From the IMG/VR virus record IMGVR_UViG_3300029319_007889, positions 1 to 46,168 of that record: a stretch of DNA of 46,168 bases; one strand, given 5' to 3'. The notes beneath the pieces are model-generated. The model had not been told where the DNA came from and made no database searches. It saw only the letters and a list, made by a program, of their open reading frames with translations. The translations under genes were made by a program, and so were the position numbers. The DNA comes from a virus. Below are positions 7,783-43,754 of this stretch, piece after piece. Position 1 is the stretch's first letter; the number at the start of each line of letters is the position of its first letter.

Positions 7783-8665
7783 TCCACACGATCATATTGT
7801 GGGTGTTATACCGTTGGCGGGATTTGAGTCGGATTTCAAATTTCCATGGCCTGACTGTATGCAGCCAATTTCCGACAATTATCTAGCAATCGAGAGATCT
7901 GTCGTTGAGTGCGCCTATGCTGGGTGCGACACGATATGGATTGTGTGTAACGACGATATACAACCCTTGATAAGACATCGGTTGGGTGAATATGTGCAAG
8001 ATCCGGTTTGGCTCATGCGACCGTTTCAAAAAAACGCTTTTCAAAACCAAAAGCCAATTCCGATATTTTATGTTCCGATAAACCCTAGACACCGAGGCAA
8101 GATAGATTGCTATGCTTGGAGTATAATGCAGGGGGCAAGAATGGCCTGGTTTATGGCTCATAAGATGAGCAAGTGGATTGTGCCGAGGAAATATTATGTA
8201 TCATATCCGCATGGCCTATATCCTCCAGAGATCTTGAGAGAACATAGAAAGACCATCCGCAATAAAGATCTCTTCTACCTATCACACAATGGTAAAACAT
8301 TTAAAGACGGAGAGTATCTAGGCTTTGCATTCAGAGAAGAGGATTATAAGAAGTTCTTGAAAGTCATCCGCAGTGGCACAGGTATATGGGACCCAGATGG
8401 CTTCGAGTATGGTGGGAAAAATAAGTTGTTGCCGCCCGGGCAGAAGAATTCGGCGACAAAATTTTCTCTTGACAAAGTGTTTAAAGATGCTATACTAGAG
8501 GACGGAAATGAGATAGAAGTTCCTTGGTTTTATCCGATCGATAATTGGGAAAATTTAAAGAAGTTTTTAGGGTCAGAAGAGTCGAATTTACTTGCAAGAC
8601 CATCCAAGCATATGTTACAATATAAAGAGTTCAATCCGATAGGAATCGATAATGAAGAAGAGTGA
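7775..8665 (+). CDS. Sugar nucleotidyltransferase-like (GT-A fold) protein
   Basis: 296 residues. The N-terminus GVIPLAGFESDFKFPWP, the ISDNYLAIERSVVECAYAGCDTIWIVCND segment (in pieces) and the later DCYAWSIMQGARMAW follow the layout of GlmU/RmlA-like nucleotidyltransferases: a strand with a gapped glycine loop, the Lys/Pro patch, and the AGxxxIxIV strand. The usual GGxGTRL loop is altered, so activity is uncertain. Its last 14 bases overlap dnaE. It may prime sugars or be a replication-linked nucleotide enzyme. Confidence 0.75.
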   Translation: MSSPHDHIVGVIPLAGFESDFKFPWPDCMQPISDNYLAIERSVVECAYAGCDTIWIVCNDDIQPLIRHRLGEYVQDPVWLMRPFQKNAFQNQKPIPIFYVPINPRHRGKIDCYAWSIMQGARMAWFMAHKMSKWIVPRKYYVSYPHGLYPPEILREHRKTIRNKDLFYLSHNGKTFKDGEYLGFAFREEDYKKFLKVIRSGTGIWDPDGFEYGGKNKLLPPGQKNSATKFSLDKVFKDAILEDGNEIEVPWFYPIDNWENLKKFLGSEESNLLARPSKHMLQYKEFNPIGIDNEEE

Positions 8666-10667
8666 ATCAAACATCCCCTTTGTGGGCCTCCACGCCCATT
8701 CTAACGCTAGTATTTTCGATGGGTTAGGGTATCCGGGGGAGCACATGGACTATGCCTTCTCGACGGGACAGGACGCCTTAGCGTTGACCGATCATGGCAA
8801 TATGAACAACCTTGCATACCAAGTTATGCACGCAAAGAAGATGAAGAAGGACGGCAAGGAGTTCAAGCCCATTTATGGTTGTGAAGCGTACTTCATCCCC
8901 TCCATTTCCAAGTGGAAAAAGGAGGTTGAAGCTCTTAGCGAGAAAAAGAAGACAAAAGAGGAGATTGGTACTTTCGTAGAAGACGAAAGCCGCGAAAAGA
9001 AGAAGAATATTTTGCGACAGCGAGCACACATGATCTTGTTGGCGCAAAACGAGGAAGGCTTGAGCAATCTTTTTAAGCTCGTCTCCGAAAGCTACAAGGA
9101 AGAGAACTTTTATCGGTATCCCCGTATTGATTATCGATTGCTAAAGAAGTATAACAAGGGGATTATCGCTGCTAGCGCATGTCTTGGCGGCGTCTATGCT
9201 CAAGACTATTGGAATAACCGCGATGATGGAGACACTGCCATCATGAATGCGATGTACAAGACAACCGAACAGATGCAAGGTATCTTCGGCGATCGTTGGT
9301 ATGGTGAGATCCAATGGAACAAGATTCCCGAACAACATGAATTGAACCAATATATTATCAAGACGTGCCAAAAGATGGGTGTGGAGTTGATTTCAACTGC
9401 CGATAGTCACTTTCCATCCCGCGATGCCTATAAGGACCGTGAATTGTATCGCCGACTTGGGTGGATTGGAAAATCGCGCCGTCCGGATTGGCTGTCCGCG
9501 GACCTTCCCGATTCGATCGATGACATGGATTACGAATTGTATCCTAAGAATGGCGAAGCTATGTGGGAGTCGTACAAAAAAAGTTCGGCAGAACTCGGCT
9601 TCAAGTATGATGACGATGTTGTGTTGAAATCGATTACTCGTACACACGATATTGCCCACCAAAGGATTGAGACCTTCTTTCCAGATTCGACCGTTCGCCT
9701 TCCTGACTTCGTTGTACCCGAAGGAGTCAGCGCTGATCAAGCCTTGGTGCAGTTCTGTGTTGATGGGCTGAAGCAGAAGGGGTTCAAGGACAATGAGGAG
9801 TACATTGCTCGACTGAAACAAGAGATCAAAGTAATCCAGAAACGAGGTTTCTCGAAATACTTCTTGACGATGAAGGCCATTGCAGATAGGGCGGTTCAGG
9901 ATCAGTTGGTTGGTCCTGGTCGAGGATCTGCTGCAGGTTCTTTGATCGCTTATGTGTTGGATATCACACAGGTTGATCCCATCAAGTACGGCTTGCAGTT
10001 CTCTCGCTTCCTCACCGAAGAGGGTGCAGGATACCCAGATATCGACTATGATGTGTCAGATCCGATGGTATTGAAGGAGAAGTTGATTGAGGAATGGGGC
10101 GACACCACCGTTGTTCCTATTTCAAACTGGAACACACTACAGCTTCGCAGTCTCATCAAAGACATTTCGAAGTTTTATGATATTCCATTCACCGAGGTCA
10201 ACTATGTGACCGGCCGAATGCTTCACGAGGCAACTCCAGAGGCCAAAAAGGCACATGGTATCAAGGCTGGCGTCTATACACCAACATTTCAAGAGGTGAT
10301 GTTGTATAGCAAGTCTTTGCAGGATTTTCTCAAGAAATATCCGAAGGTTGAGACACACATCAATGTCTTATATGGCCAGATTCGGTCTTGTTTTACTGAC
10401 AAGGTGGGTATTTTGACTGACGATGGCTATAAGACCGTTGATGAGATTGAGACCGGGGATTTGGTTGCTTATTACGGAGAGGATAACCAAATTCATTACA
10501 ATAGCGACTATGAGATCTATTTTCAGGGAACCAAGGAGGTTTATGAGGTTGAACTTGAAGATGGAAGCACCATAGAACTTACGGCCGACCACGAAGTTCT
10601 AACCCAAAATGGTTACAAGCAGGTGGCGAACCTCACAGAAGAAGATTGTATGTTTGGGGTGGCATAA
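8652..10667 (+). CDS. dnaE: DNA polymerase III alpha subunit, N-terminal half, fused to split-intein N part
   Basis: 671 residues. Residues 1-579 are the polymerase: PHP domain from LHAHSNASIFDGLG with ALTDHGNMN, then GPGRGSAAGSLIAY and the catalytic pair in YPDIDYDVSD. From Cys580 the sequence becomes an intein (CFTDKVGILTDDGYKTVDEI, then the block B motif LTADHEVLT) and stops at 10667. The third catalytic Asp (FDILGL) lies in the separate gene at 11654, so protein trans-splicing is needed for an active polymerase. Joined exteins would be about 1136 residues, the normal size for DnaE. A phage using a C-family replicase is itself uncommon compared with family A or B enzymes. Confidence 0.95.
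   Translation: MKKSESNIPFVGLHAHSNASIFDGLGYPGEHMDYAFSTGQDALALTDHGNMNNLAYQVMHAKKMKKDGKEFKPIYGCEAYFIPSISKWKKEVEALSEKKKTKEEIGTFVEDESREKKKNILRQRAHMILLAQNEEGLSNLFKLVSESYKEENFYRYPRIDYRLLKKYNKGIIAASACLGGVYAQDYWNNRDDGDTAIMNAMYKTTEQMQGIFGDRWYGEIQWNKIPEQHELNQYIIKTCQKMGVELISTADSHFPSRDAYKDRELYRRLGWIGKSRRPDWLSADLPDSIDDMDYELYPKNGEAMWESYKKSSAELGFKYDDDVVLKSITRTHDIAHQRIETFFPDSTVRLPDFVVPEGVSADQALVQFCVDGLKQKGFKDNEEYIARLKQEIKVIQKRGFSKYFLTMKAIADRAVQDQLVGPGRGSAAGSLIAYVLDITQVDPIKYGLQFSRFLTEEGAGYPDIDYDVSDPMVLKEKLIEEWGDTTVVPISNWNTLQLRSLIKDISKFYDIPFTEVNYVTGRMLHEATPEAKKAHGIKAGVYTPTFQEVMLYSKSLQDFLKKYPKVETHINVLYGQIRSCFTDKVGILTDDGYKTVDEIETGDLVAYYGEDNQIHYNSDYEIYFQGTKEVYEVELEDGSTIELTADHEVLTQNGYKQVANLTEEDCMFGVA
10389..10664 (+). 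other. Split intein, N-terminal part (IntN)
   Basis: Residues 580-671 of the upstream dnaE gene. Cys1 follows the extein ...GQIRS. Block A: CFTDKVGILTDDGYKTVDEI with TGDLV; block B: GSTIELTADHEVLT (TxxH). After MFGVA the frame stops. The 92-residue length is usual for a split-intein N piece. Confidence 0.92.
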
Positions 10668-10679
10668 AAAGAGGCTATT

Positions 10680-10716
10680 ACTATACCTCCTGCCTATTTA
10701 TAATAGGAGGTATGGT
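10680..10716 (+). promoter_or_regulatory. Hairpin covering the endonuclease ribosome-binding site
   Basis: ACTATACCTCCT (10680-10691) pairs with AGGAGGTATGGT (10705-10716), 12 base pairs including one G-U, around a 13-base loop. The right arm contains the AGGAGG (10705-10710) that serves the ATG at 10720. The fold would hide the ribosome site, so translation of the endonuclease is probably held down. There is no T-run, so it is not a terminator. Confidence 0.75.
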
Positions 10717-10719
10717 AGT

Positions 10720-11673
10720 ATGTTTAAGTGTAAGATTTGTAGTATTGAGTTGAAGCGAGGGAGCGGCCACATAAAGGCAAAGCATCACATCTCTACATTG
10801 GAATACATAAGCGAGTATGAAGGGATAGATTGTTGCGCTATGTATGATGAAGGATACTCCGCTCAACAAATAGCAGATTTTATTAAAGAAAAGAGGCTGG
10901 GAGTTCGCCCAATAAAAAAGGATGTGCTAGATTATTTGCGCTCTAAGCGAGTTGAGATTCGTAATACGTCAGCAGCCACGAAAGTTTGGATTCAAAAAGC
11001 CGGCGGCCCCTGGAATAAGGGTAAGACAAAAGAAGACCACCCGGGTATAATGAAGTATGCTGAATCGCGACGAGGCAAAAATAATCCGTATTATAAGCAA
11101 ACGGAGGAAGCAAAGGCTAAAACTCGCTATTGGGAATACAAGAGCGAAGAAGAACTTGCGGACATCCGCCGAAGAGTCGGCGAGACGCTGAAAAAGAAGT
11201 ATCGCACCGGCGAACTAGTGCCATACGCAGTTCTTAACCCGGAGTGGGGATCCGTCGCACATCGTAAGCGGATGGAGGGTTATAGAAGATGGGCGAAGGA
11301 TGGGAACAAGGTTAAGTTTGGCAACACTTCGGCAGCGGAGCGGGAAATCGCATCAATCTTACAAGAAGAAGGAGTCAGACACATCAGGCAGTTTTCTCCG
11401 GGAAAGTATAGGTATGACTTTTGCGTGCCGGAAACAAACACGATCATAGAATACAATGGAACTTACTGGCACGCTGACCCAAGGAAGTATAAAGAAGATT
11501 ACTATAACCAGAAAAAAGGGAAAACAGCCAAAGAAATGTGGGACTATGATAAGAAAAGGGTTGATTTTGCCACTGAGATGGGTTATACTGTGAATGTTGT
11601 TTGGGAAGAGGACTACAAACGGCTCACGAAAGACGAAAAAAGGAAGTTGATTCTTGAAAGCATTAAAAGTTAA
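10720..11673 (+). CDS. Free-standing homing endonuclease, Vsr-like, with NUMOD3-type region
   Basis: 317 residues from ATG 10720 (AGGAGG nine bases upstream). N-terminus: CKIC...HIKAKHHIS...EYISEYEG, a small MucR-like zinc finger. Middle: GPWNKGKTKEDHPG and RRGKNNPYYKQTEEAK, like NUMOD3 DNA-binding repeats. C-terminus: SAAEREIASILQEEGV, YRYDFCVPETNTIIEYNGTYWHADP and MGYTVNVVWEEDY, the order of elements in Vsr-type nucleases (catalytic Asp/Glu, WH, Trp-Glu). It lies exactly between the two intein halves and overlaps the downstream one by 20 bases. This matches the known layout of genes fractured by split inteins with a Vsr-like endonuclease, which presumably cuts intein-free dnaE. Confidence 0.9.
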   Translation: MFKCKICSIELKRGSGHIKAKHHISTLEYISEYEGIDCCAMYDEGYSAQQIADFIKEKRLGVRPIKKDVLDYLRSKRVEIRNTSAATKVWIQKAGGPWNKGKTKEDHPGIMKYAESRRGKNNPYYKQTEEAKAKTRYWEYKSEEELADIRRRVGETLKKKYRTGELVPYAVLNPEWGSVAHRKRMEGYRRWAKDGNKVKFGNTSAAEREIASILQEEGVRHIRQFSPGKYRYDFCVPETNTIIEYNGTYWHADPRKYKEDYYNQKKGKTAKEMWDYDKKRVDFATEMGYTVNVVWEEDYKRLTKDEKRKLILESIKS

Positions 11674-11788
11674 ATCAGTCAATAAACTGCGCGAAGATAA
11701 GGTTTTTGACATTCATCACAAACTGGATCAAAAGCAGTTTCTAGAAGAACACCCAAATTTGATTGCGAATGGGTTTGTGATTTCAAAC
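11654..11788 (+). other. Split intein, C-terminal part (IntC)
   Basis: Residues 1-45 of the downstream dnaE gene. Block F: DKVFDIHH; block G: HPNLIANGFVISN, ending at Asn45 with Cys46 as the +1 extein residue. The residue before the final Asn is Ser instead of the usual His, which is tolerated in some inteins. Confidence 0.92.
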
Positions 11789-13462
11789 TGCTCTAGGCAC
11801 GCCGGCGGGGTGGTGATTGGTGAAGACCTAGACAAGCGTATGCCGCTTATCAATAGCAAGGGTGTGCGCCAAACTCCATGGACAGAAGGACAGAATGTTC
11901 GACATCTTGAGCCCATGGGTTTTATCAAGTTTGATATCCTGGGACTGGCTTCACTCCGCATGATGGAGTTGGCCATTCGTCATATTTTAAAAAGACATCA
12001 CGGAAACCCGGATCCGTCGTTTGATGATGTGAGAAAGTTCTACAATGAAAACCTACATCCAGAGGTCTTGAACTTTGCGGACCAGGAGGTTTATCAAAAC
12101 ATCTTTCACGACGGTAGGTGGGTTGGCATCTTCCAGTTTACAGAAGGTGGTGCGCAAAAACTGTGCCAACGTGTTATGCCCACCAATTTGGTTGACTTGT
12201 CTGCTATTACATCGATTTATCGTCCTGGCCCTTTGAGTGCGGGCGTTGACAAGGGTTATGTCGAAGCTCGACGTGATCCTGAGTTGGTCAAGTACCCTCA
12301 CGAGCTTTTCAGACAAGTCACCAAGGATACTGCCGGCTTCCTTATCTTTCAGGAACAAATTGCCGAGTTGGCCCACAAGTTGGGACGCAACCTAACTTTG
12401 GATGAGGGCAACAAGCTAAGAAAACTATTGACCAAGAAGGGTGTTGCTGAGGTAGAGAAAGAAAAGAAGAAGATCAAGAAGAAGTTTATCGACGGCTGCA
12501 ATCAGAAGAAGATTGACTTTGCAACTTCTGAGAAGATTTGGGATTTGTTTGAATACTTCTCTGGTTACGGCTTTAACAAGTCTCACGCCATTTCTTATTC
12601 GATGCTGTCCTTTCAGTGTGCTTGGTTGATGAACTACTTTCCCATCGAGTGGGTCGCGTCTTTCCTCGATAAGGAGCCAGAGGGTCGCAAGGAGCGTGCC
12701 ATCAATCTCGCACGAAAGTTCGGATTCAAGCTGCAGCCTCTAACAATCAACCATTCTGGCAAGGTGTGGGAGATTTCCGATGACAACGAGACGTTGATTC
12801 AACCACTTTCAACCATTAAGGGGCTAGGTGACTCCGCAATTGATCAAATTATTGCTAATCGACCTTTCAATAATGTTGAGGAATTCATTTTCAACGAGGA
12901 CATTGTTTATAGCAAGTTGAACAAAAAGGCTTTGGATGCTCTGTCGAGGGCAGGTGCATGCGATGCTCTGATTGATGATAGGTTCACAGGGGCGAAGCAC
13001 TTCTGGACTGCAGTTGCCGTAGATCGTCCACGAAAAGAGAAAAACCTCATAGACAATATTGAGAAATACGCTGGCGAAGGCGAGTTTTCGGACGAGGAGC
13101 GCATTCAATATCTTGTTGATTTGACTGGTGTTTTTCCCTTCGATTTGGTGATGGACGATTATATATTGGGCCGCTTGGAGGACAACATGGTGCCTCCGTT
13201 GGGCGAGTGGGATGACAACCTTGGAGTTGCCTGGTTTATCCCGAGAGAGATCATTCCTAAAAAGACCAAGAATGGCAAAACGTATTGGATTGTCAAAACG
13301 ATTGATTCAACAAGTTCTTCAGAAGCTATCAAATGTTGGGGTGTTGACCCCAAGAGGGATAGTATTATTATTAATCGCCCCTATATGGCACGTTTAGAAT
13401 ATAGTGATCAGTGGGGCTTCAGTACAAGATCTATTAGACATAATTTCAGGATGCTAGGATGA
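11654..13462 (+). CDS. dnaE: Split-intein C part fused to DNA polymerase III alpha, C-terminal half
   Basis: 602 residues, TTG start inside the end of the endonuclease gene. Residues 1-45 are IntC (see separate entry). From Cys46 the polymerase resumes: CSRHAGGVVIGEDL, IKFDILGLASL (third catalytic Asp), GIFQFTEGGAQ, SIYRPGPLSAG, FLIFQEQI, and GYGFNKSHAISYSMLS. Then come a helix-hairpin-helix-like KGLGDSAIDQI, and an OB-like end NGKTYWIVKTID. It complements the N half at 8652. The C-terminal beta-clamp or tau-binding tail is not obvious. Confidence 0.95.
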   Translation: MKALKVKSVNKLREDKVFDIHHKLDQKQFLEEHPNLIANGFVISNCSRHAGGVVIGEDLDKRMPLINSKGVRQTPWTEGQNVRHLEPMGFIKFDILGLASLRMMELAIRHILKRHHGNPDPSFDDVRKFYNENLHPEVLNFADQEVYQNIFHDGRWVGIFQFTEGGAQKLCQRVMPTNLVDLSAITSIYRPGPLSAGVDKGYVEARRDPELVKYPHELFRQVTKDTAGFLIFQEQIAELAHKLGRNLTLDEGNKLRKLLTKKGVAEVEKEKKKIKKKFIDGCNQKKIDFATSEKIWDLFEYFSGYGFNKSHAISYSMLSFQCAWLMNYFPIEWVASFLDKEPEGRKERAINLARKFGFKLQPLTINHSGKVWEISDDNETLIQPLSTIKGLGDSAIDQIIANRPFNNVEEFIFNEDIVYSKLNKKALDALSRAGACDALIDDRFTGAKHFWTAVAVDRPRKEKNLIDNIEKYAGEGEFSDEERIQYLVDLTGVFPFDLVMDDYILGRLEDNMVPPLGEWDDNLGVAWFIPREIIPKKTKNGKTYWIVKTIDSTSSSEAIKCWGVDPKRDSIIINRPYMARLEYSDQWGFSTRSIRHNFRMLG

Positions 13463-29524: not shown

Positions 29525-30268
29525 ATGATATACATTTTTGATATTGACGGCACGTTGACACCCCATCGTCAACCAGCCACGGATGAGTTTGTAGAGTTCT
29601 TCACCGAATGGCAAAAAGACAAAGAGTTTTATTTAAGTACTGGGTCTGACTTGGGAAAAGTAAAAGAGCAGCTCCCAAAAGAGATCGTAGACTCGGCAAG
29701 GGGGATATTCTGCTGTATGAGCAACCAACTGCATGTCGAGGGCGAGCTTATATACGACTTTGAATACTGGCCCAGTAACAAGATAATAAACGCACTACGC
29801 AACACCCTGAAAGAGAGTTCCTTCCCCCTGCGTTGTGGAAACCATATTGAACAACGCCCAGGCATGATAAACTTCACTATATTGGGCCGCAATGCTAATG
29901 AAGAACAACGAGAAATCTATCATGAGCACGACAAAATAGCAAAAGAAAGGGAGAAGATTGCGTCCAAGTTAAGTCAAGAGTTTGATCATTTGGACTTCGT
30001 GATAGGGGGAAAGATTAGTATAGATATATATCCGAAAGGCAGAGATAAGAGGCAATGCATCGAGTGGATCGTCGAAAACGAAGATCCGACACCTATGTTG
30101 TATTTCGGTGATAGTGTTTACGAAGGTGGCAATGATTATGCCGCGGCCAAAGAAATAGATAAATATGAGGAATCAGAGTGGCATAATGTCAGCAACTGGC
30201 GAGAAACAATGGAACTATTAAAATCCTATGACCTAGTTATTTCAAAGGATGGCGTTACGGAACAGTAA
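29525..30268 (+). CDS. Phosphomannomutase, eukaryote-type HAD family
   Basis: 247 residues, the usual size for alpha-PMM. HAD motif I FDIDGTLTP (both Asp kept), STGSDLGKV (motif II region), GMINFTILGRNA, IGGKISIDIYPKGRDKRQC (the GG...SxDI.P.G.DK signature) and LYFGDSVYEGGNDY (motif IV). It interconverts mannose-6-phosphate and mannose-1-phosphate, feeding GDP-mannose. Likely supports sugar changes with the UDP-sugar dehydrogenase and nucleotidyltransferase-like genes. Overlaps the MopE gene by 20 bases. Confidence 0.88.
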   Translation: MIYIFDIDGTLTPHRQPATDEFVEFFTEWQKDKEFYLSTGSDLGKVKEQLPKEIVDSARGIFCCMSNQLHVEGELIYDFEYWPSNKIINALRNTLKESSFPLRCGNHIEQRPGMINFTILGRNANEEQREIYHEHDKIAKEREKIASKLSQEFDHLDFVIGGKISIDIYPKGRDKRQCIEWIVENEDPTPMLYFGDSVYEGGNDYAAAKEIDKYEESEWHNVSNWRETMELLKSYDLVISKDGVTEQ

Positions 30269-32471
30269 ATTACTATTAGCACTACTACTTTCTTCCTGTT
30301 CTTGCGAAGATACCTGGACTCTTTTTGCCAATGAAAAACAGGCACCCTACCCACTTGACACTACCTGCGATTACAATAACCCACATGCAGAATACAATGA
30401 ACAAATCCCCGAACTTTGCGATGGTATAGACAATAATTGTGACTGCCTAGCCAAACCTTTAAACGAACAAGATACAAATGGAGACTTAGAACACTGCGGC
30501 CCAGGAGACGAAGGCGTGGATGAAGGTTGCGAGTGTTGGCCCGAGATGACGGAATATTCAGTTGATTGGGCAAGCAGTGTAAGAAAGTGTTGGACGAATG
30601 AATTAGGAGGTGATTTAGGTGACATTCGTGAGCATAGTGATGAGATGGGACAGTTACACGGTGAGTGCGAATACGGGCGACAGACTTGCAGACCTATGCC
30701 TCAAGGGGGTTCTGAGTGGGGAGTATGGAATGATGGTCCTGATAGGACTGGCGGCACTACGGATGACGTTTGGATAGAGGGCGGGTGCATCGAAGCAATT
30801 GCCCCTGCGACTGAAACGTGTGACGGCTTAGATAACAACTGCGATGGCCGAACCGATGAAGGATTAAAAAGAATGTGTTGGTCCGGGCCTTCAAATGCAG
30901 ATGGTACGCCTCAAAATTGGTTGGTGATGAATAACCCGAGTAACCCTGAAACTCCATGCCGTACAGGCATTGAGCTGTGTGAAAGTGGTGTATGGTCAGG
31001 GTGCCAGAATGAAATATTGCCATCCACTGAAGTATGCGATAGTTTAGATAATGACTGCGACGGCTTGATCGACGATAATCCCGAAGGGCAAGGGGCACAG
31101 TGTGGACTGACTGATGCTGGAACTTGTGATTATGGAACCTTTCAGTGCGACGGTGCCGACCTGATTTGTATTGATCCAAGATTACCACAAACTGAAGAAT
31201 GTGATGGCGTCGATAACGACTGCGACGGCGAGGTGGACGAAGGTCTTTTACGCCCCTGCGAGAATGAGTGTGGGTCGGGATTTGAGACGTGTGATAGTGG
31301 AGACTGGATTAACTGTAGCGCGCAGCAGCCCGTCGAGGAAGTGTGTGATGCTGAAGACAACGACTGCGACGGTCAGGTAGATGAGGGCTTAGAGTGTAGC
31401 TGCCCCCCTGAGTTTGTTGGCGCTTTGGTTCCTTGTGCACACAATCCACAACTCACTTGCGGCGAAGGATTTATGGAGTGTCGGTGCCTAGACGAACAAT
31501 GCACCACAACTGCGTTTTCGGATTGCATGGCCATGTGTGCATTCCAGCCCGTGGAGCAGGGAGTCTGTGACCCCACTGGCGGAGATCCTATGCCTGAAGA
31601 GTGTGATGCTTGGGATAACGACTGTGATGGCGAGATTGACGAAAGATTGCAATCAGCGTGCTACAGCGGACCCCCTGGAACGCAAGGCGTAGGCTCATGC
31701 CAAGAAGGCGTAATGAGGTGTGCAGATGGGCGCTGGGGAAGTAATGTCGGCGGTGTGTTCGTAGATGGTATTTGCGCTGGAGAGTCTGTACCAGCCGAGG
31801 AGGTCTGCGATCGCATCGACAATGACTGCGACGGCGATATTGATGAAAATTTAGATAGTCATGAAAAGGTGGACATGGTGTTTGCAATCGACCGTAGCGG
31901 TTCGATGTGTGATAAGATTCAAGCACTTCGTGAAGGTATACAGCCTTATGTGCTGGAGTTTGCCGATACTCATCACCGCTTTGCATTAGTGAACATGCCA
32001 GGTACTCGCCGCTCAAGGGGTTCAAGGGGTCCGGGTAATATCTACAGACCCGATGTGCAAATTAACTTTGTAGATTCGATGGCTTTTGCCGCGGCACTCG
32101 CCGCCTTGGATTGCAATCTCAGCAACGAAGAGGCACAATATGATGCTATGGAATCCATTGGCAACGATACTATGGGACTCAACCACAGAGCGGACGCATG
32201 GCCTATGGTGGTGGTGTTGACAGATGAAGTGGCACAGTCTTTTTACGATACCGATGCGGGCGATGTTCGCAGTGCGACTAATCCATGCCAACTGGGCTCC
32301 TGTGAGGCCAATGACGTATTGGAGGTTTTTGCAATAGTTAAGGAAGAGCATTTTTCCGAATGGTGCGCCCCGGCTAACATCGCTCAAGACTGTTACAGAC
32401 TATATTCAGGAATTGATGGAAATACCATTCGAGGTTACTTAGACGATATATTTAGCGACATTTGTCGATAG
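30249..32471 (+). CDS. MopE-repeat lipoprotein with C-terminal VWA domain
   Basis: 740 residues. Lipoprotein-like start (LLLALLLSSC). Seven copies of the MopE metal-binding motif, pattern CDxxDNxCDGxxDE: for example CDGLDNNCDGRTDEG, CDGVDNDCDGEVDEG, CDAEDNDCDGQVDEG and CDRIDNDCDGDIDEN. From about residue 541 a von Willebrand A domain follows, with the MIDAS motif DRSGSM and VVVLTDEV. MopE repeats bind copper or calcium in methanotrophs and are abundant in Myxococcota-type secreted proteins; VWA domains bind ligands through a metal ion. As a phage product it is probably an outer-surface adhesin or virion-displayed receptor binder, perhaps captured from the host. Confidence 0.88.
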   Translation: MALRNSKLLLALLLSSCSCEDTWTLFANEKQAPYPLDTTCDYNNPHAEYNEQIPELCDGIDNNCDCLAKPLNEQDTNGDLEHCGPGDEGVDEGCECWPEMTEYSVDWASSVRKCWTNELGGDLGDIREHSDEMGQLHGECEYGRQTCRPMPQGGSEWGVWNDGPDRTGGTTDDVWIEGGCIEAIAPATETCDGLDNNCDGRTDEGLKRMCWSGPSNADGTPQNWLVMNNPSNPETPCRTGIELCESGVWSGCQNEILPSTEVCDSLDNDCDGLIDDNPEGQGAQCGLTDAGTCDYGTFQCDGADLICIDPRLPQTEECDGVDNDCDGEVDEGLLRPCENECGSGFETCDSGDWINCSAQQPVEEVCDAEDNDCDGQVDEGLECSCPPEFVGALVPCAHNPQLTCGEGFMECRCLDEQCTTTAFSDCMAMCAFQPVEQGVCDPTGGDPMPEECDAWDNDCDGEIDERLQSACYSGPPGTQGVGSCQEGVMRCADGRWGSNVGGVFVDGICAGESVPAEEVCDRIDNDCDGDIDENLDSHEKVDMVFAIDRSGSMCDKIQALREGIQPYVLEFADTHHRFALVNMPGTRRSRGSRGPGNIYRPDVQINFVDSMAFAAALAALDCNLSNEEAQYDAMESIGNDTMGLNHRADAWPMVVVLTDEVAQSFYDTDAGDVRSATNPCQLGSCEANDVLEVFAIVKEEHFSEWCAPANIAQDCYRLYSGIDGNTIRGYLDDIFSDICR

Positions 32472-33223: not shown

Positions 33224-33547
33224 GTGGAAGAAGTTATCAAACCGTTATTGGAATATGGTATATTAGGACTATGGACCGTTAGCTTGATTTGGCAAGGAAG
33301 ACAGGCGCAAGGACGCTTTGATGCAGAAATCAAACGTCATGAAGAAGATAAGGCCGCGATGAGAAAAGTATTAACAATGCACAGCGAACAACTTAATAAA
33401 ATTGAGGACAATTTAGCAAACCTGATTGGCAAAGTAGAAATAATTGCCCGAGATTCCCAAGAAGCAAGGATGAGAGAAGCAATGAGATCCCAAAACAAAA
33501 CAAAATATGTGACAGTCAGAGACTCGTCAGACGGAGAATCAAGATAA
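33224..33547 (+). CDS. Membrane-anchored coiled-coil protein
   Basis: 107 residues, GTG start after GGAGGG. One membrane segment near the N-terminus (LLEYGILGLWTVSLIW), then a long coiled coil (HEEDKAAMRKVLTMHSEQL, NKIEDNLANLIGKVE). This resembles small BhlA/UviB-type holin-like proteins. It overlaps the LDL-A gene by one base. Confidence 0.74.
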   Translation: MEEVIKPLLEYGILGLWTVSLIWQGRQAQGRFDAEIKRHEEDKAAMRKVLTMHSEQLNKIEDNLANLIGKVEIIARDSQEARMREAMRSQNKTKYVTVRDSSDGESR

Positions 33548-35253
33548 TGGCCCGGGCCTGGAGAATTATGGCAATAGCCTATCTTCTGTTTACGGTAGGT
33601 TTCGGCGTTGTCATGCAACAAGCGTGCAGTGCCGTAGCTACATCTAATGTGCATCCCTATGCTGGCCCCGTATGTCAGATAGGTATGCGTCAGAATTGCC
33701 CATGTGAAGGAGAGTGGGGCTGGCAAGACTGCGAAGAGAAGACGGAAGGATACTTCACTTGGGCAGAGTGTCAGTGCGAAGGCGAGTACCCCGACGTTAC
33801 GACAGAGCCAGATCCGAAACCAGCTAAGGAAGAGGAAGGCGGCGAAGGCGAGGGCGAAGGTGAAGGAGAGGTCGCGGAAGGAGAAGGTGAGGGAGAGGCT
33901 GCTGAAGGTGAGGGTGAAGAGGAGCCCGCAGAGGGAGAGCCAGAACCAGCCGAAGGGGAAGGAGAGGAAGGCGAAGGTGAAAAGGGAGAAGGTGAAGGCG
34001 AGGGTGAAGGGGAAGAAGAACTAGAGTGCGAAGAGTTGCAGCTAATGTGCGAAGATTTGCAGCAGTGCATCCCTGAAGAGTGGCGATGTGATCACGAGGA
34101 AGACTGTGAAGATGGGAGCGATGAGTGGGATTGTCCTCCGCCCGAGCCCCGCCCAGGACAAAACTTAGGCGACGACTGCACGGGAGATCACAATATTTGT
34201 GTGGGTGATTTGACATGCTTAGGTTACAACCATAGCGGCCATGAAGGTCGCATATGCACGATCGGCTGCCAATTGGATGAAGATTGTGATGATGAAGATT
34301 TTAGATGCATGCAGCCCGCAGAAGGGCTTGGTTGGTGCCTGCCTTCGGATACTTTCCCAGAAGACCCTGGGTGTGAGGATAACGAGTTTGAGTGTCACGA
34401 TGGATCCGACTGCGTTCCTCCTGAAGAAATGTGCGATGGTGAAAACAATTGTGACGATGGCACGGATGAAGCTGATTGCCCCGAGCCCGAACCGGAAGAG
34501 TTCTGCTGCGCCGATGGCATAGGGTGTGTGCCATTGGACAAGCAATGCAACGGCGATAACGACTGCGTTGACCATAGTGATGAGTTTAATTGCCCAGCGC
34601 GAGGATGCGGACCCCTCTCTGATTGCTTTGGCGGGTGCCATTGCCCAGACGCTAACTCAGATGGGCGGTGTGATGATCGCGACCGCGAAGTAGGCGATGT
34701 CCACGATTGTATCCAAGAGTGTATCGACACAATTGGTCAGGACTCCTGGCAGGCTTACCAGGCACGCAACCAATGTATGAATGACAATTGTCCATGGGAT
34801 GTGACAGGTGGTAACGCTTGGGAAGAATATATTTGCTCTATGCGCCACTGCTTGCCCGAATTGCAGGCATGCGGCGATAGCTATGACACTGGGGACATTC
34901 CTTTTGAATGTGCCGAGAACCAGTTCCAGTGCTCCGGTCAAGAACGCTGCATTCCTGAGGAGTGGGTCTGCGATGGGGATAATGACTGTGGAGATATGTC
35001 GGACGAGCCCGCTGATCAGTGCGCCCCGCCTGAGCCAGAAGATTTGTGTGAGGGCTATGAATATAAAGTTTGTGCCGCTAATGCTGACTGTGGCGCAGAC
35101 GGTTTCTGTCATAACATAAGATCTATGTCTGACGGCGGGTCTTGCTTGCCAAGCTCATGTCAGTGCGACCCTACGACGGGGCTCCCTGGAAACGCTTGTA
35201 CTCGAATGTGTGTTAACATGGGAGCACCCCGCGGTTTATGCGGACCAATATAA
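33547..35253 (+). CDS. Secreted protein with four LDL-receptor class A modules and Glu-Gly linker
   Basis: 568 residues. A hydrophobic start (IMAIAYLLFTVGFGVVM) acts as signal or anchor. Residues about 96-158 are almost only Glu and Gly (GEGEGEGE, with Ala and Pro). Four LDL-A-like modules follow, each with six cysteines and the calcium-binding SDE/TDE end: near residues 161-197 (DCEDGSDEWDC), 277-312 (NCDDGTDEADC), 319-349 (DCVDHSDEFNC) and 456-493 (DCGDMSDEP). Further cysteine-rich parts lie between. LDL-A modules bind ligands through calcium and disulfides, so the protein must be exported or displayed. This mix is known from bacterial surface proteins of predatory or marine groups. Phage use as receptor binder or host-surface mimic is inference. 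Confidence 0.85.
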   Translation: MARAWRIMAIAYLLFTVGFGVVMQQACSAVATSNVHPYAGPVCQIGMRQNCPCEGEWGWQDCEEKTEGYFTWAECQCEGEYPDVTTEPDPKPAKEEEGGEGEGEGEGEVAEGEGEGEAAEGEGEEEPAEGEPEPAEGEGEEGEGEKGEGEGEGEGEEELECEELQLMCEDLQQCIPEEWRCDHEEDCEDGSDEWDCPPPEPRPGQNLGDDCTGDHNICVGDLTCLGYNHSGHEGRICTIGCQLDEDCDDEDFRCMQPAEGLGWCLPSDTFPEDPGCEDNEFECHDGSDCVPPEEMCDGENNCDDGTDEADCPEPEPEEFCCADGIGCVPLDKQCNGDNDCVDHSDEFNCPARGCGPLSDCFGGCHCPDANSDGRCDDRDREVGDVHDCIQECIDTIGQDSWQAYQARNQCMNDNCPWDVTGGNAWEEYICSMRHCLPELQACGDSYDTGDIPFECAENQFQCSGQERCIPEEWVCDGDNDCGDMSDEPADQCAPPEPEDLCEGYEYKVCAANADCGADGFCHNIRSMSDGGSCLPSSCQCDPTTGLPGNACTRMCVNMGAPRGLCGPI

Positions 35254-35309: not shown

Positions 35310-35669
35310 ATGCATAACTACATAAAAAATTGGAAACAATATCTCCTCAAAGAGCAAACTGGCTATGAATACAAGTCTTTTCAGATACTTGTCAGAATCA
35401 GAACCAGTAAAGAGCTTGGTGGAGATAAATATGAGACAATCGGAGAGATCAGGTCCATCCCCGGTGTAACGGTGGTATCATACGTCCCTGAATCTGGCCG
35501 TGAAGACTCCAGCCATTACTATGACACAGTTAAGGTTAAGTTTTGTTGTACTCAAAGTGTAAAGATATCTCCAAGATCATTCGTGAATAGAATATTGAGA
35601 AAAGAGATGAATAAGATTCAGGGAATTAATGTGGAAAAGTTCGTTGGAAACATCGAGAGGGTTGCATAA
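35310..35669 (+). CDS. Small protein with shared N-terminal tag
   Basis: 119 residues. The start MHNYIKNWKQYLLKEQ carries the window's recurring WK-x-x-L-x-E tag. The body has beta-rich segments SFQILVRIRTSKE and YDTVKVKFCC. Function unknown. Overlaps the next gene by one base. Confidence 0.75.
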   Translation: MHNYIKNWKQYLLKEQTGYEYKSFQILVRIRTSKELGGDKYETIGEIRSIPGVTVVSYVPESGREDSSHYYDTVKVKFCCTQSVKISPRSFVNRILRKEMNKIQGINVEKFVGNIERVA

Positions 35670-36661: not shown

Positions 36662-37077
36662 GAACAATAATGGTGTCGGGAGGCATGGACCCCATCCATG
36701 TCGGCCATTTGCGAATGATTCAGGCCGCGGCCAAACTCGGAAGGGTTGTCGTAGCTCTAAATTCTGATGACTGGCTCATGAGGAAGAAGGGCTATATTTT
36801 TATGCCATGGGAAGAGAGAGCCGAGATACTGCGTGGCATAGAGGGCGTACATGAGGTTGTAGACGTTGATGATTCAGATGGCACTGTATGTGAGGCTCTG
36901 CGACGTGTTCAACCTAAGATGTTCGGCAACGGTGGAGATAGAAAAGTTCACAATACACCCGAGCAAGATGTGTGCAAGGAATTCGCAATAGATTTGGTTT
37001 GGGGCCTAGGCGGCGGGAAAGTACAGAGTAGCAGCGAATTGGTTGAAACTGCTCGCTCCGATGGCGCTGATGTATAG
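36640..37077 (+). CDS. Cytidylyltransferase-family protein (HVGH)
   Basis: 145 residues; ATG 36640 has GGAG six bases away, with ATG 36658 as an alternative. VSGGMDPIHVGHLRMIQAAAKLG holds the HxGH motif, then NSDDWLMRKKGYIFMPWEER and FGNGGDRKVHNTPE. This is the layout of the RfaE/HldE C-terminal and glycerol-3-phosphate cytidylyltransferase group, which activates a phosphorylated sugar or polyol with ATP or CTP. Supports a sugar-activation theme. Confidence 0.84.
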   Translation: MGLDNEMRTIMVSGGMDPIHVGHLRMIQAAAKLGRVVVALNSDDWLMRKKGYIFMPWEERAEILRGIEGVHEVVDVDDSDGTVCEALRRVQPKMFGNGGDRKVHNTPEQDVCKEFAIDLVWGLGGGKVQSSSELVETARSDGADV

Positions 37078-37549
37078 TTGGTTTGCTGGCGACGGCACCC
37101 CGGTTGATTTTGCTCAAATAATAGAAACTGTAGAAGAACATTATTTTAAAGATGGCACAGTATATGTGGGCTCCGATAGCCAGCCGCATAACGGTGGTTG
37201 CATCTTGTCGAGTGCCATTGTGTTGCATGGTGCTGAAGGACAACAAGGCGGCCACTACTTCATAACAAGGGAAAAGATTACATCGAAAGGCATGACGGTT
37301 TTGGCAACAAGGATTTTAGCTGAAACAGAGAAAACAATAAGAATTGCCCACGATATCGTACACCTGTTTCCAGACATAAAGATTGAGCTTCATGTAGATG
37401 TGAGTAACACTGACAAAAAGGCCGCTACGAGCAACCTAGCGTCCATGGTTGTCGGATATGTTACTGGCAATGGCTTTACCTGTAAAATCAAGCCTGAGGC
37501 GTTTGCAGCGGCCTCTGTGGCCGATAAACATTCAAAAGGCAGACCTTAA
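37070..37549 (+). CDS. YkuK/DUF458 family predicted RNase H-like protein
   Basis: About 159 residues; start chosen at ATG 37070 (ATG 37061 and TTG 37043 are alternatives; none has a strong ribosome site). TVYVGSDSQPHNGGC (first acidic strand), FITREKITSKGMTVLATRILAETEKT, IELHVDVSNTDKKAA and IKPEAFAAASVADKHSKG match the DUF458/YkuK family, predicted RNase-H-fold. Its substrate is not known. Overlaps the cytidylyltransferase end. Confidence 0.83.
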   Translation: MYSWFAGDGTPVDFAQIIETVEEHYFKDGTVYVGSDSQPHNGGCILSSAIVLHGAEGQQGGHYFITREKITSKGMTVLATRILAETEKTIRIAHDIVHLFPDIKIELHVDVSNTDKKAATSNLASMVVGYVTGNGFTCKIKPEAFAAASVADKHSKGRP

Positions 37550-37561
37550 ATGATAGATAGG

Positions 37562-37608
37562 TTTGTCACATTACTGACTATTTAGTAGCAATATGAAGAT
37601 AAAAGAGA
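37562..37608 (+). repeat. 47-base direct repeat, left copy
   Basis: Identical to 39119-39165 except for one base (C at 37589, T at 39146). It contains TGTCACATTACTG, the ACTATTTA motif and the first codons MKIKE of pckA. The repeat unit is 1557 bases, a multiple of three. Confidence 0.97.
37577..37584 (+). promoter_or_regulatory. ACTATTTA promoter-like motif for pckA
   Basis: Eight bases before the ATG at 37593, with no Shine-Dalgarno between. The transcript would be leaderless or nearly so. Confidence 0.5.
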
Positions 37609-39113
37609 CCATGTTGGATAAGGTGTTTGAGTTTGGAGATGTGCTTATTAACCCCTCCCGCGCTGCGCTACGAGAGTTAGCTCAGCCTGGGGAAATGACG
37701 ACCCGATGGGGCAGCCCGGCTTACATCAGCCGGGTGCGCTCTCGGTCGGCTGCGTTCACCGTCACTGATATTGATGACGGCTTCTCGCCGGAGGATCTCG
37801 ATGAGGTTCGTGCGGTGCGAGAGTATCTCTCTGATAAAGAGATGTTGCAGGTCGATCGAGTCATGGGCATGGACGCCGAGCGTAGTTTTCGCTGTCGGTT
37901 GTACATTCGTCCTTCTCTCGCCCGTGTGGCGATGATGTGGCAAGCCAGCTTGTTTGCCCACAATACGGGCGACGCTCGCGGGCCGGACTTCGTTACGGTG
38001 TACGTCCCAGAATGGCATCGCCGTCGGATTCTGGTGAGTCTGGAGACAGGGCTCACCCTCGTGCTTGGTGTGGATTACTACGGCGAAAGCAAGATGTCGT
38101 TCTTGCGCCAGGCGATGTACGCCGCGAAGACCCGTTGGGGCGGGATCGGGCTGCATGCCGGGTCCAAGCTTCTGACCGTCAGAAATGCAGAAACCAATGA
38201 ATTGCAGGAGCGGGGCGCCATTTTCTTTGGTCTCTCCGGGACGGGCAAGACGAGTTTGACCTGCCACCATCATGAGCTGGAAGGCGAGGAGACGGTGGAG
38301 ATTCTCCAAGACGACATCGTGTTCATGGACGCGAGCGGCGCCTGTTATGGAACAGAGGAAGGCTTCTACATCAAGACCGAGGGCCTCGATCCCAAAGATC
38401 AAGAGCTGTTGTACGACGCTGCGATCTCCGAGAACGCCATCTTTGAGAACACTTGGGTGGGCCCGGACCGTGAGGTGGATTTCGAGAATGGCGCCCTCAC
38501 GGGGAATGGGCGCGCCTTGGTGTTAAGGCCCGAGGTGAAGAACACCTCCGAGCGCATTGATTTGAAGAAATCTCATCTTGTGTTCTTCATCACGAGAAAC
38601 CAGACCATCGTCCCGCCTGTTGCGAGACTCAACCCTGCCCAGGCAGCGGCTGCTTTCATGTTGGGTGAGTCGATCAAGACCAGCGCAGCGGATCCCACCG
38701 CCAAGGGTGAGCCTGTTCGATGCGTGGGTACCAACCCCTTCATCGTGGGTTCGCTCTCGGCCGAGGGGAATCGTTTCTACGACATCATTAAGCGCAACGC
38801 GGACGACATTGAGTGTTTCTTATTGAACACCGGCAAGATTGGGGGCCCACAGGGTGAAAAGATCTCGTTGATGGCGAGCCAGGCCATTATTCGAGAGTTG
38901 GCCCGCGGGACAGTGCAGTGGAAAAAGGATGCCGATTGGGGTTACGAGACCCCTGTCTCCATTCCTGGTCTCGAAGTTGAACAGTTTGAGCCCCAACGCT
39001 TCTACAGTGATCAAGAGCTGAGCGAACTCACCTCGGAGTTGAAGGCCGATCGCCAGGAGTGGCTGTCTTCGTTCCCAGGTCTAGATGAGGAGATTGTCGA
39101 GGTCTTTCAATAA
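37593..39113 (+). CDS. pckA: ATP-type phosphoenolpyruvate carboxykinase
   Basis: 506 residues. Core motifs are present: metal Lys in YYGESKMSF, His in GLHAGSKLL, P-loop GAIFFGLSGTGKTSL, metal Asp in LQDDIVFMD, TEEGFYIKTEG, substrate Arg in VPPVARLNP, and NTGKIGGPQG. The N-terminal substrate loop GRSPKDK of the standard enzyme is not seen; the nearest is FSPEDLDEV. I recall similar divergent PEPCKs in Myxococcota-type bacteria (memory, not a search). It converts oxaloacetate to phosphoenolpyruvate and CO2. Base composition is clearly richer in GC than the neighbours (hand counts: 68% at 38461-38520, 62% at 38701-38760, against 47% at 39181-39240). Bracketed by 47-base repeats: a recently gained metabolic gene. 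Confidence 0.92.
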   Translation: MKIKETMLDKVFEFGDVLINPSRAALRELAQPGEMTTRWGSPAYISRVRSRSAAFTVTDIDDGFSPEDLDEVRAVREYLSDKEMLQVDRVMGMDAERSFRCRLYIRPSLARVAMMWQASLFAHNTGDARGPDFVTVYVPEWHRRRILVSLETGLTLVLGVDYYGESKMSFLRQAMYAAKTRWGGIGLHAGSKLLTVRNAETNELQERGAIFFGLSGTGKTSLTCHHHELEGEETVEILQDDIVFMDASGACYGTEEGFYIKTEGLDPKDQELLYDAAISENAIFENTWVGPDREVDFENGALTGNGRALVLRPEVKNTSERIDLKKSHLVFFITRNQTIVPPVARLNPAQAAAAFMLGESIKTSAADPTAKGEPVRCVGTNPFIVGSLSAEGNRFYDIIKRNADDIECFLLNTGKIGGPQGEKISLMASQAIIRELARGTVQWKKDADWGYETPVSIPGLEVEQFEPQRFYSDQELSELTSELKADRQEWLSSFPGLDEEIVEVFQ

Positions 39114-39118
39114 GAAGA

Positions 39119-39165
39119 TTTGTCACATTACTGACTATTTAGTAGTAATATGAAGATAAAAGAGA
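39119..39165 (+). repeat. 47-base direct repeat, right copy
   Basis: Second copy of 37562-37608, lying just after the pckA stop and carrying the promoter-like motif and start codons of the next gene. Recombination between the copies would remove pckA exactly and leave one intact promoter and start. Confidence 0.97.
39134..39141 (+). promoter_or_regulatory. ACTATTTA promoter-like motif
   Basis: Eight bases before the ATG at 39150; duplicate of the pckA motif. Confidence 0.5.
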
Positions 39166-39332
39166 TAGAGCTATCAACACTCCTAACTTTGGCGGGCATC
39201 ATCGCAATGGGCGCTGGATTTGTTTATACAGCAGAGTATAGGCTAGGCGCTATTGAGCAAAGACTTGAACAGGTTGAAGAAAGTCAAAAAAAGTTAGGAA
39301 AGAAAATCAATAAGTTGAACAAGAAGAAATAA
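39150..39332 (+). CDS. Small membrane protein with coiled coil
   Basis: 60 residues: MKIKEIELS, one membrane segment (TLLTLAGIIAMGAGFVY), then a coiled coil (LGAIEQRLEQVEESQKKLG) and a Lys-rich end. Starts with the same codons as pckA. Size and layout suit a holin accessory or spanin-like role, unproven. Probably the original gene of this locus before pckA arrived. Confidence 0.75.
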   Translation: MKIKEIELSTLLTLAGIIAMGAGFVYTAEYRLGAIEQRLEQVEESQKKLGKKINKLNKKK

Positions 39333-39333
39333 T

Positions 39334-39525
39334 ATGTGCTTGATTTGTATAGAAATAGATAAAGGTAGGTTGACTTTTGAAGAAGGGTGGAGAAACCTTA
39401 GCGAGATGGAAGTCAGCTTAGAAGAAGACCACATACCTGTTGTGAAACAAAAGTTGATAGACAAGATGTTAGAGGAAGCCCGCGAGGCGCAGGCGCTTGA
39501 AAATGGAGACTCCAGTGACAAATGA
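39334..39525 (+). CDS. Small acidic hypothetical protein
   Basis: 63 residues. CLICIEIDKGRLTFEEGWRN near the start and a helix ending EAREAQALENG. One base after the previous stop, ATGA overlap with the next gene. Not recognised; the CxxC could bind metal. Confidence 0.75.
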   Translation: MCLICIEIDKGRLTFEEGWRNLSEMEVSLEEDHIPVVKQKLIDKMLEEAREAQALENGDSSDK

Positions 39526-39851
39526 GCCCAGACGATTTAAAAATACTAACAACGGATCTCATGGGCACATACGGTTGGCTTTTTGTTGTGGGCTTCGTAA
39601 CAATGATGTTCAAGAATTTGATAGCAAATACTTTGGCTGGCGTGATGTTCATGTTTGGCAGCGATTTTGATACGGACGACATAGTTTATATCAACGGTGA
39701 AAAGAAAGCAAGAATAGTTAGGCAAACGCCAAATAAAACTGTTTTTCATTTACTTGAAACAGATAGAAAGCTGATTGTCCCCAACACAGAGCTATATAAA
39801 TTGAGAGTCGAAAAGGTTTTGCCGGGATCGAAAAACGGAACGGAATTATGA
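39522..39851 (+). CDS. Miniature MscS-like membrane protein
   Basis: 109 residues. One hydrophobic stretch (YGWLFVVGFVTMMFKN) leads into LIANTLAGVMFMFGSDFDTDDIVYING (in parts), then ARIVRQTPNKTVFHLLETDRKLIVPNTEL. The order N-x-x-AG, then D-x-V-x-I-x-G, then IVPNTEL follows the pore helix and beta domain of MscS channels (AG...rPF..GD.V.i.G...iPN). It lacks the other two MscS helices and the C-terminal cage. Could be a small channel, a holin, or a modulator of the host MscS. Confidence 0.72.
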   Translation: MSPDDLKILTTDLMGTYGWLFVVGFVTMMFKNLIANTLAGVMFMFGSDFDTDDIVYINGEKKARIVRQTPNKTVFHLLETDRKLIVPNTELYKLRVEKVLPGSKNGTEL

Positions 39852-40453
39852 AACTTATACTTGAAAATTGGAAAAAGTTTCTAAATGAAAGCAAGCTCCG
39901 TGTTTTTGATTTCGACGACACATTGGTCGCCACAGACTCGATGGTGTATCTCACTCTTCCAGACGGGAGCGAGAAGGAGATAACACCAGCGGAGTTCGCT
40001 ACTTATCAATTGAAAGATGGCGAGTCCTTTGACGAAGATCCAGAGAGTGCTAACTTTGCATACAGAGAGTTCGGACAGATAAAGAATCCTAAAGAAATAC
40101 CTTTTGTAATGAACATTTTGAAAAGTGTAGTAAAGAAAGAGATGCAAGATCCAGAAGACCGTAAAATTGTTATCTTGACAGCAAGGGCACATAATGCTAG
40201 AATACCCATACTAACATTTCTGGAATATGTCCTCGGCACTTCCGCAGCAGAAAAGGTGGAGGTCCACACACTTGGAGACAAAGATCCCAATGCGAAGAGT
40301 GGCTGGATTGAGGCTGAAATAATGCAGGGTGCAACTGACATTGAATTTTTTGATGATTCCGGTCCCAACGTAGAAGCGGTGGCCGCACTAAAAGAAAAGT
40401 ATCCTGAAGTGCGTTTGCGTTCACGGAGAATAATTAAAAGGGGAGAGGGATAA
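39848..40453 (+). CDS. HAD-family phosphatase with shared N-terminal tag
   Basis: 201 residues. Tag: MKLILENWKKFLNESK. Then HAD motif I LRVFDFDDTLVATDS, motif II IVILTARAHN, motif III about Lys in HTLGDKDPN, motif IV IEFFDDSGPNVEA. Relatives dephosphorylate nucleotides or polynucleotide ends. The tag suggests it may be packaged and cleaved after LNE. ATGA overlap with the previous gene. Confidence 0.85.
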   Translation: MKLILENWKKFLNESKLRVFDFDDTLVATDSMVYLTLPDGSEKEITPAEFATYQLKDGESFDEDPESANFAYREFGQIKNPKEIPFVMNILKSVVKKEMQDPEDRKIVILTARAHNARIPILTFLEYVLGTSAAEKVEVHTLGDKDPNAKSGWIEAEIMQGATDIEFFDDSGPNVEAVAALKEKYPEVRLRSRRIIKRGEG

Positions 40454-40456: not shown

Positions 40457-41050
40457 ATGAAGAAACTAATGAAGGAGTGGAAGCTATTGCTTGAATCAGC
40501 GACGATGGACAATGTTGTTGTTGCAATCTTTGGGCCAACTGGCTGCGGAAAGACAACTTACAAGAATCACCTTACAGACAAGGGCTGGAGGCATATAAAG
40601 TCATTCACCACTCGACCACCAAGACCCTTGGAAGACAGCGAGTACCACTTTGTCTCGCCTAAAGAATATAATGATATGTTCAGCAGAGGATTATTGATGA
40701 ACACAAATCGTTATGATGGGCACTATTATGGAACGAACGTAAACGATTTTATGCAAACTGGCAAATCTGTTATTATAACTGACGTAACCAGCTTGTACAA
40801 ACTACACCGTGCTGCAACACAAAATGGTAAAGATATCAGGTTCATGCATTGTGCGATCGAAGACCCAGAAGAACTTGAAAGAAGACACATCTCAAGGGGC
40901 ACTCCTGACCGCGTTGCGTTGATGAAAAAAGAATTGCAGGACGATGCTTACCAAAAATCTCTCACCATCCCAGGAATCAGAGAGAGGATGTATATTGTTT
41001 ATGACATCGAGGACTTGGACGAGTTTGTCGAGGAAATAAAGAATGAGTAA
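40457..41050 (+). CDS. Guanylate-kinase-like protein with shared N-terminal tag
   Basis: 197 residues. Tag: MKKLMKEWKLLLESAT. Then P-loop VAIFGPTGCGKTTY, the GMP-binding segment SFTTRPPRPLEDSEYHFVSPKEY, and NRYDGHYYGTN, which are typical of GMP kinase. The enzyme makes GDP from GMP, consistent with the IMPDH-like gene. The added tag is not part of normal guanylate kinases. Confidence 0.9.
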   Translation: MKKLMKEWKLLLESATMDNVVVAIFGPTGCGKTTYKNHLTDKGWRHIKSFTTRPPRPLEDSEYHFVSPKEYNDMFSRGLLMNTNRYDGHYYGTNVNDFMQTGKSVIITDVTSLYKLHRAATQNGKDIRFMHCAIEDPEELERRHISRGTPDRVALMKKELQDDAYQKSLTIPGIRERMYIVYDIEDLDEFVEEIKNE

Positions 41051-43058: not shown

Positions 43059-43754
43059 TTATTGTTCAATCTTTTTCGCTTTAGAGGCGATGGAGCGCAC
43101 CACCATTCTCTCTTGACGAGACAAATCTTGGTAAGAACTAACCTCTTCTTTGAAGACGATCGGGCGATTTGAAACACGAGTCATAAATTCGCCTTCTTTT
43201 CCTGCCGAAAAGCCACCGATTGATTCACGGTTGCCCATTCCGGGCCACTCGCTATTGTTCGTGCCAAAGACATAAGCATCCTGGCCACCCTTCGGTATCA
43301 ATAGAACGGAGTCTTGACAATACCTCACACCCAAGGAAACAACATTCTCAAAGAAGTTGGCCGAATCAGAAAGGTTGACTACAAAGAAGCTACCCTCTTT
43401 TACTTCGATAGATTCAGGTGCCTCCTTTCCATCTCTCTTGTCTTGTGCGATTTGCTCTGGCGTGCGATAGTTTTCAATGTAGGAACCATCTACAGCCGTC
43501 ACACCGAAACCAGCATCCAAGAGCATAGCTTTGAGTTCTCTGTTTCTTCTTTTGTTGGTTTGAAGGGTAGTGTTCTCTCCACCTTCCTCTGGAGCCAATT
43601 CGTCACTGCACCTACTCATATCAGTAGGGTCATTACGAAAGGCTGTAACAATCGCTGTATCGTGCTCAGTCATGTGTTTATGAAAGCGAGCGAGTCCAGA
43701 TTCGTTTAGAACATTATCTCTCCATTCATTCATTATGTTTTTCATTTCAGACAT
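43059..43754 (-). CDS. Tagged protein, DUF3293-like
   Basis: 231 residues. The N-terminus MKNIMNEWRDNVLNESG carries the shared tag. The body has TAIVTAFRND, NKRRNRELKAMLLDAGFGVTAVDGSYIEN (in parts), VKEGSFFVVNL and RYCQDSVLLIPKGGQDAYVFG, which by eye follow the DUF3293 layout. Function unknown. The tag suggests packaging with the genome. Confidence 0.78.
   Translation of the reverse strand: MSEMKNIMNEWRDNVLNESGLARFHKHMTEHDTAIVTAFRNDPTDMSRCSDELAPEEGGENTTLQTNKRRNRELKAMLLDAGFGVTAVDGSYIENYRTPEQIAQDKRDGKEAPESIEVKEGSFFVVNLSDSANFFENVVSLGVRYCQDSVLLIPKGGQDAYVFGTNNSEWPGMGNRESIGGFSAGKEGEFMTRVSNRPIVFKEEVSSYQDLSRQERMVVRSIASKAKKIEQ

Follow-up and report, generated by a model that had tools for sequence, protein, structure and literature searches.

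We analyzed a 46,168-base IMG/VR virus record, referred to below as the window, in which pckA (37593..39113, + strand), a gene for a 506-aa ATP-type PEP carboxykinase (PEPCK), lies between two copies of a 47-nt direct repeat. The slot that it occupies is bordered on the left by an RNase H-like gene (37043..37549, + strand; PF04308, E 2.5e-28). To the right of the second repeat copy follow a gene for a 60-aa small membrane/coiled-coil protein (39150..39332, + strand), which is weakly Rz-spanin-like (phrog_739, E 1.6e-4), and a conserved gene for an MCLIC protein (39334..39525, + strand) that marks the slot on its right. The RNase H-like and MCLIC proteins are 76% and 62% identical, respectively, to their counterparts in a related record, G211.

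The phage is a large tailed phage. The left half of the window codes for ribonucleotide reductase, a PurZ-like adenylosuccinate synthetase, a split DnaE-like polymerase, a dehydrogenase and GroEL. A scan with the window polymerase matched 80 related viral contigs, some of them 180-205 kb in length, and the right part of the window varies among these relatives. Judging by the metagenome names, the group is probably marine. An HNH/homing-endonuclease-like ORF (10609-11673) interrupts the DnaE-like polymerase gene (8652-13462) and may belong to an intein or intron, and the PurZ-like gene (5450-6439; phrog_1211) hints that adenine is modified in the phage DNA. The regions 30249-32471 and 33547-35253 encode proteins with cysteine-rich repeats of the DNDCDG type, and similar large proteins are found in relatives. 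An N-terminal leader resembling MKxLMENWRxFLNE and ending in an (L/I)xE motif is common to unrelated proteins of the window (35310-35669, 39848-40453, 40457-41050 and 43059-43754), and is also found in L122, L124 and L125. Such leaders recall the capsid-targeting sequences that the prohead protease of T4 cleaves, and may mark proteins that are packaged and injected. A second leader type, MKLTxxxLxxIIxEE, heads several unrelated ORFs in relatives (L098, L118). The gene at 43059-43754 (− strand) additionally gives a weak match (E 5e-7) to PF23780, a family of S-adenosylmethionine lyases, which are known to act in counter-defence.

The pckA gene and the repeated module around it

In composition, pckA stands apart from the other large genes of the window. 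Its GC content is 0.56, and its GC3 is 0.688 vs 0.450 ± 0.048 (maximum 0.542) for the other 17 window genes of at least 250 aa, a z-score of about 5. Its codon-usage likelihood is the lowest among all window genes, and GC shifts abruptly at the repeat edges. An initial annotation of this DNA had described pckA as GC-rich compared with its neighbours, and the GC, GC3 and codon profiles all agree with that description.

The product scores 524 bits against the NCBIfam model NF006821 (curated cut-off 369) over residues 6-503 and matches PF01293 (E 1e-63). Its identity is about 38-44% with haloarchaeal PEPCKs and 34-40% with the nearest Asgard ones, and it groups with the NF006821 clade with 100/100 support in a 27-row tree. 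The 506-codon frame is fully open, and PckA keeps R65, Y207, K212, H232, the P-loop GTGKT, D268, D269 and R333 (E. coli numbering); the position of K213 is occupied by Met, as it is in 5 of the 11 other members examined, these five being cellular relatives. PckA is therefore predicted to be an intact-looking ATP-type PEPCK of the NF006821 (halo/Asgard-like) subfamily. Because the NF006821 alignment begins at residue 6 and an ATG is present at 37611, translation in the donor probably began at that position, at Met7, with MKIKE being a later addition. Its composition points to a gene that is foreign to the phage and recent in it. A single-protein scan of viral contigs found no close relatives of PckA, and a scan of genome contigs with exact 8-residue patterns, which could miss a moderately identical donor, returned one distant Asgard match; a donor was found neither in the viral contigs nor in the genome contigs of Asgard archaea.

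The arrangement around pckA, given in the initial annotation as flanking 47-base repeats that carry a motif and start codons, was verified to exact coordinates and a single mismatch (C/T). Copy A occupies 37562..37608 and copy B 39119..39165, both on the + strand, and the pair can be extended to 50 nt with two mismatches. The copies are 1557 bases apart, and excision of these 1557 bp (pckA plus one repeat) would regenerate the downstream gene exactly, a prediction of the annotation that also proved correct. Copy A is in frame with pckA, whose end lies 5 nt before copy B, and copy B stands before the membrane-protein gene. A repeat of this kind was absent from shuffled sequence, and when the gene-start regions of the window are compared with one another (1225 pairs), this pair scores 43 vs 14 for the next best. 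The 19-nt repeat core has two copies only in the window, allowing up to three mismatches, and an exact search for the core in viral contigs found none; the 47-nt repeat has been seen in one genome only. The fold of the repeat is no stronger than chance (z-scores −1.0 and −0.3 for the two copies), and a terminator scan found no terminator-like site in either.

Both copies contain ACTATTTA (37577..37584 in copy A and 39134..39141 in copy B, + strand) and ATGAAGATAAAAGAG, the codons for MKIKE. ACTATTTA occurs 9 times in the window vs 1.4 expected, with all 9 sites within 60 nt upstream of an ORF start and one of them inside the gene at 5450-6439. Its enrichment and its position suggest a promoter-like motif, and it may function as a promoter, perhaps a late one. 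In neither repeat did promoter scans detect a site of the sigma-70 type. Identity with the T4-type late promoter was rejected: the consensus TATAAATA occurs 6 times in the window vs 3.4 expected, with one site near an ORF start, and it is ACTATTTA that is enriched instead.

Homologues of the 60-aa membrane protein without an adjoining pckA are present in other phages (L265, L118, L098 and L170). The homologue in L265 (MKITLDLKTL...) is the firm case, being 52% identical with an E of 1.7e-10. Those in L118, L098 and L170 begin MEKIKVDIKT..., MKIEIGTLIT... and MSEVKFDIKT..., respectively; the similarity of the window protein to L118 and to L098 is weak on its own, and the distance from Met to a conserved Thr is equal in the window, L118 and L170 proteins. 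Since homologous starts occur in phages without pckA, the MKIKE start would belong to the downstream gene, making copy A the derived copy and copy B the one at the native site. Another repeated start module occurs in relatives: in L087 (101-600) and L099, several small genes have a common start region, GGAGGTAATCAATGAAAGTCGGTGAT (MKVGD).

A cysteine synthase in the same slot of a relative

Searches for an empty site with the left-neighbour genes and with a HAD-like gene found no synteny. A scan with the MCLIC gene led, through entry L267, to G211, an 84.7-kb record whose DnaE is 78-84% identical to that of the window over two segments. Most window genes up to the slot are matched in G211 in the same order, and we regard it as the closest syntenic relative of the window phage. 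In G211, the slot between the RNase H-like and MCLIC genes holds a 285-aa cysteine synthase, for which the best NCBIfam model is TIGR01136 (286 bits, below the cut-off of 344) and which scores well above the cut-off of PF00291; PEPCK was not found in this record. As a check, the initial annotation had named related phages with the locus lacking pckA and holding one repeat. G211 provides the locus without pckA, whereas the exact pre-insertion state (a single module, an intact membrane gene and no pckA) was not found, the membrane gene in G211 being reduced to a remnant of its start.

The G211 cysteine synthase ends with LSCY and a stop codon within TTGTCCTGTTACTAACTATTTA, the stop overlapping the ACTATTTA motif, and ATGAAAATGAAG, which follows this junction, looks like the remnant of the membrane gene's start. 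G186 and G193 carry a 63% identical cysteine synthase whose stop likewise overlaps ACTATTTA (RYLSCM stop, TAACTATTTA). At the homologous place, both window copies read TTG TCA CAT TAC TGA (LSHY stop; 37563..37577 in copy A and 39120..39134 in copy B, + strand), with the TGA overlapping ACTATTTA. The bases before the motif match G211 at 19 of 23 nt, and within the window a match of this kind occurs at the two repeat copies only. Left of copy A, ATGATAGATAGG (37550..37561, + strand) is a probable fossil of the lost cysteine-synthase start, encoding MIDR vs MIER in G211. Together with the next 6 nt it forms ATGATAGATAGGTTTGTC, in which 15 of 18 positions agree with the beginning of the G211 gene and which is the sole such place in the window; the fossil start spans these 18 nt only.

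From this comparison, the repeat appears to be the fossil of a junction made up of the cysK tail, the motif and the membrane gene start, and the 12 nt before copy A are probably what is left of the cysK start. With cysK fossils in the window and a cysK occupant in G211, the event would therefore be a change of occupant, in which cysK was lost and pckA gained. The initial annotation had proposed insertion by duplication of a promoter-start module. A recent foreign insertion and the duplication of the module around pckA are both retained here, but the site was probably not bare: the fossil cysteine-synthase 3' end in the module and the cysK occupant in G211 speak against insertion into a bare intergenic site and for replacement of cysK.

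PEPCK genes in other phages

The initial annotation had also called a PEPCK in a phage unusual. A profile scan with a PEPCK alignment contradicts this, having identified PEPCK in 80 other viral contigs. Except where a contig end truncates them, nearly all of the viral ORFs are full length; their GC differs little from that of the flanks, and the active site is kept in all 46 aligned representatives. A matching polymerase was present in 15 of the 27 PEPCK records tested, including six with a DnaE 56-61% identical to that of the window; in five of these six the PEPCK gene lies near dnaE. A further 25 relatives, many of which are fragmentary, yielded no PEPCK, and on the DnaE tree the distribution of the trait looks patchy.

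None of the other viral PEPCKs has flanking repeats longer than 17 nt, and none among the viral contigs scanned belongs to the NF006821 subfamily. The phylogeny, which the initial annotation had named as a check, places the window protein in its NF006821 clade apart from the PEPCK of related phages, and a tree uniting the two was rejected (AU p 0.00067, 27-row tree). As the window and its related phages carry different PEPCK clades, the function would have entered this phage group on at least two occasions, drawn from separate subfamilies and placed at separate loci.

Origin of the arrangement and comparison with known systems

We consider it probable that a foreign pckA replaced cysK in an exchangeable slot and that duplication of the tail-promoter-start module gave pckA a phage promoter and start. 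The ancestral slot, between the RNase H-like and small membrane-protein genes, would have held a cysK-like gene whose stop overlapped the ACTATTTA motif serving the downstream gene. In the window lineage cysK would then have been lost, leaving about its first four and its last four codons, and the module of cysK tail, ACTATTTA and first five codons of the downstream gene would have come to flank pckA on both sides. The upstream module would be fused in frame just before the probable ATG of the donor, supplying promoter and start, while the downstream copy would keep the old membrane gene intact. Both the deletion of cysK and the insertion of pckA may have been joined by short-homology template switching during (recombination-dependent) replication. 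The hexamer TTTGTC stands at the left edge of both repeat copies, and in G211 ATTGTC lies near the start of the cysteine-synthase gene and TTTGTC near its end; the hexamer at both left edges is suggestive of short-homology joining, not proof of it. The order of pckA entry, cysK loss and module duplication is one that we infer. Expressed from the module, as its position would allow, pckA could make PEP from oxaloacetate in infection, feeding gluconeogenesis and nucleotide precursors.

The most serious alternative, possible although we think it unlikely, differs from occupant replacement in the entry route only: a module-pckA fusion from another phage would have arrived as a circle or fragment and crossed over at the single resident module. 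A single crossover of this kind leaves two near-identical copies with pckA between them, and promoter cassettes mediate gene shuffling in T4-like phages, according to the account cited in PMC4503421. A relative, G013, has a 74-nt exact repeat (L087, 3463-3536 and 4681-4754), promoter-like by eye, with copies 1218 bp apart before two adjacent genes that look ATPase-like and VWA-like, so the window phage is not alone in having a start region duplicated around one gene. The viral-contig scans, however, found neither a second phage with a module-pckA fusion nor another viral PEPCK of the NF006821 subfamily. It is improbable that the module and its downstream gene were first duplicated in tandem and that the body of one copy was then exchanged for pckA; this would yield the promoter-start in two copies and make the first gene chimeric, but it requires more steps, and beyond MKIKE there is no membrane-gene remnant at either the 5' or the 3' end of pckA.

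The contig is metagenomic and the composition of pckA foreign, as they would be if assembly had linked a host pckA to phage DNA by way of a short repeat. We give such a chimera very little credence, given the in-frame fusion at MKIKE, the 506 open codons, the end of pckA 5 nt before repeat B and the cysK fossil in both copies. Least likely of all, and scarcely credible, is transposon-like insertion of pckA with the repeat as a target-site duplication: direct repeats do flank the cargo, but pckA is the sole gene of the insert, with no recombinase gene, and target-site duplications are typically far shorter than 47 nt.

On the replacement reading, uptake of a metabolic gene with immediate expression, rarely visible in phages since the joins erode, is caught here with the joins still readable: a gene of the wrong composition, module copies that differ at one position, fossils of the gene that was displaced, and a relative in which that gene still stands. 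The double acquisition of PEPCK suggests recurrent selection for carbon flow from oxaloacetate to PEP in infection, and the direct repeat predicts a loss rate for pckA. More speculatively, ACTATTTA promoters overlapping the 3' ends of slot genes might be a general docking site for accessory metabolic genes in this phage group, although we rate this well below an even chance. If it were true, swaps through a duplicated tail-promoter-start module would give immediate expression and stay reversible by recombination.

Among known systems, the module recalls the PeSL (promoter early stem-loop) cassettes, repeated promoter cassettes through which genes are shuffled in T4-like phages (Arbiol 2010; Comeau 2014, as cited in PMC4503421). 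Both are repeated promoter-bearing modules beside accessory genes, able to drive gene gain and loss by recombination. The window repeat differs in having no stem-loop beyond chance, no sigma-70 early promoter and two copies only, and in including a gene tail and start codons. PeSL membership was rejected, as an early promoter, a stem-loop/terminator and many intergenic copies are all lacking. Earlier work counts pckA among the viral auxiliary genes (PMC12448302) and records PEPCK in giant viruses (PMC9270025). Window PckA shares its active-site residues with the NF006821 family (PRK09344.1-3) and is 42-44% identical to haloarchaeal members, but it is phage-encoded and takes its first five residues from a phage gene. 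The PEPCKs of the 80 other IMG/VR contigs are likewise phage-carried, including in phages with related DnaE, whereas they belong to other clades, mostly match their surroundings in composition, and lie at other loci (near dnaE in five) without flanking repeats. The cysteine synthase of G211 (cysK/cysM, TIGR01136) sits in the same slot with ACTATTTA over its stop, and the window keeps only its first and last codons. The readable swap footprint and the repeated independent gain of PEPCK function both seem to be new.
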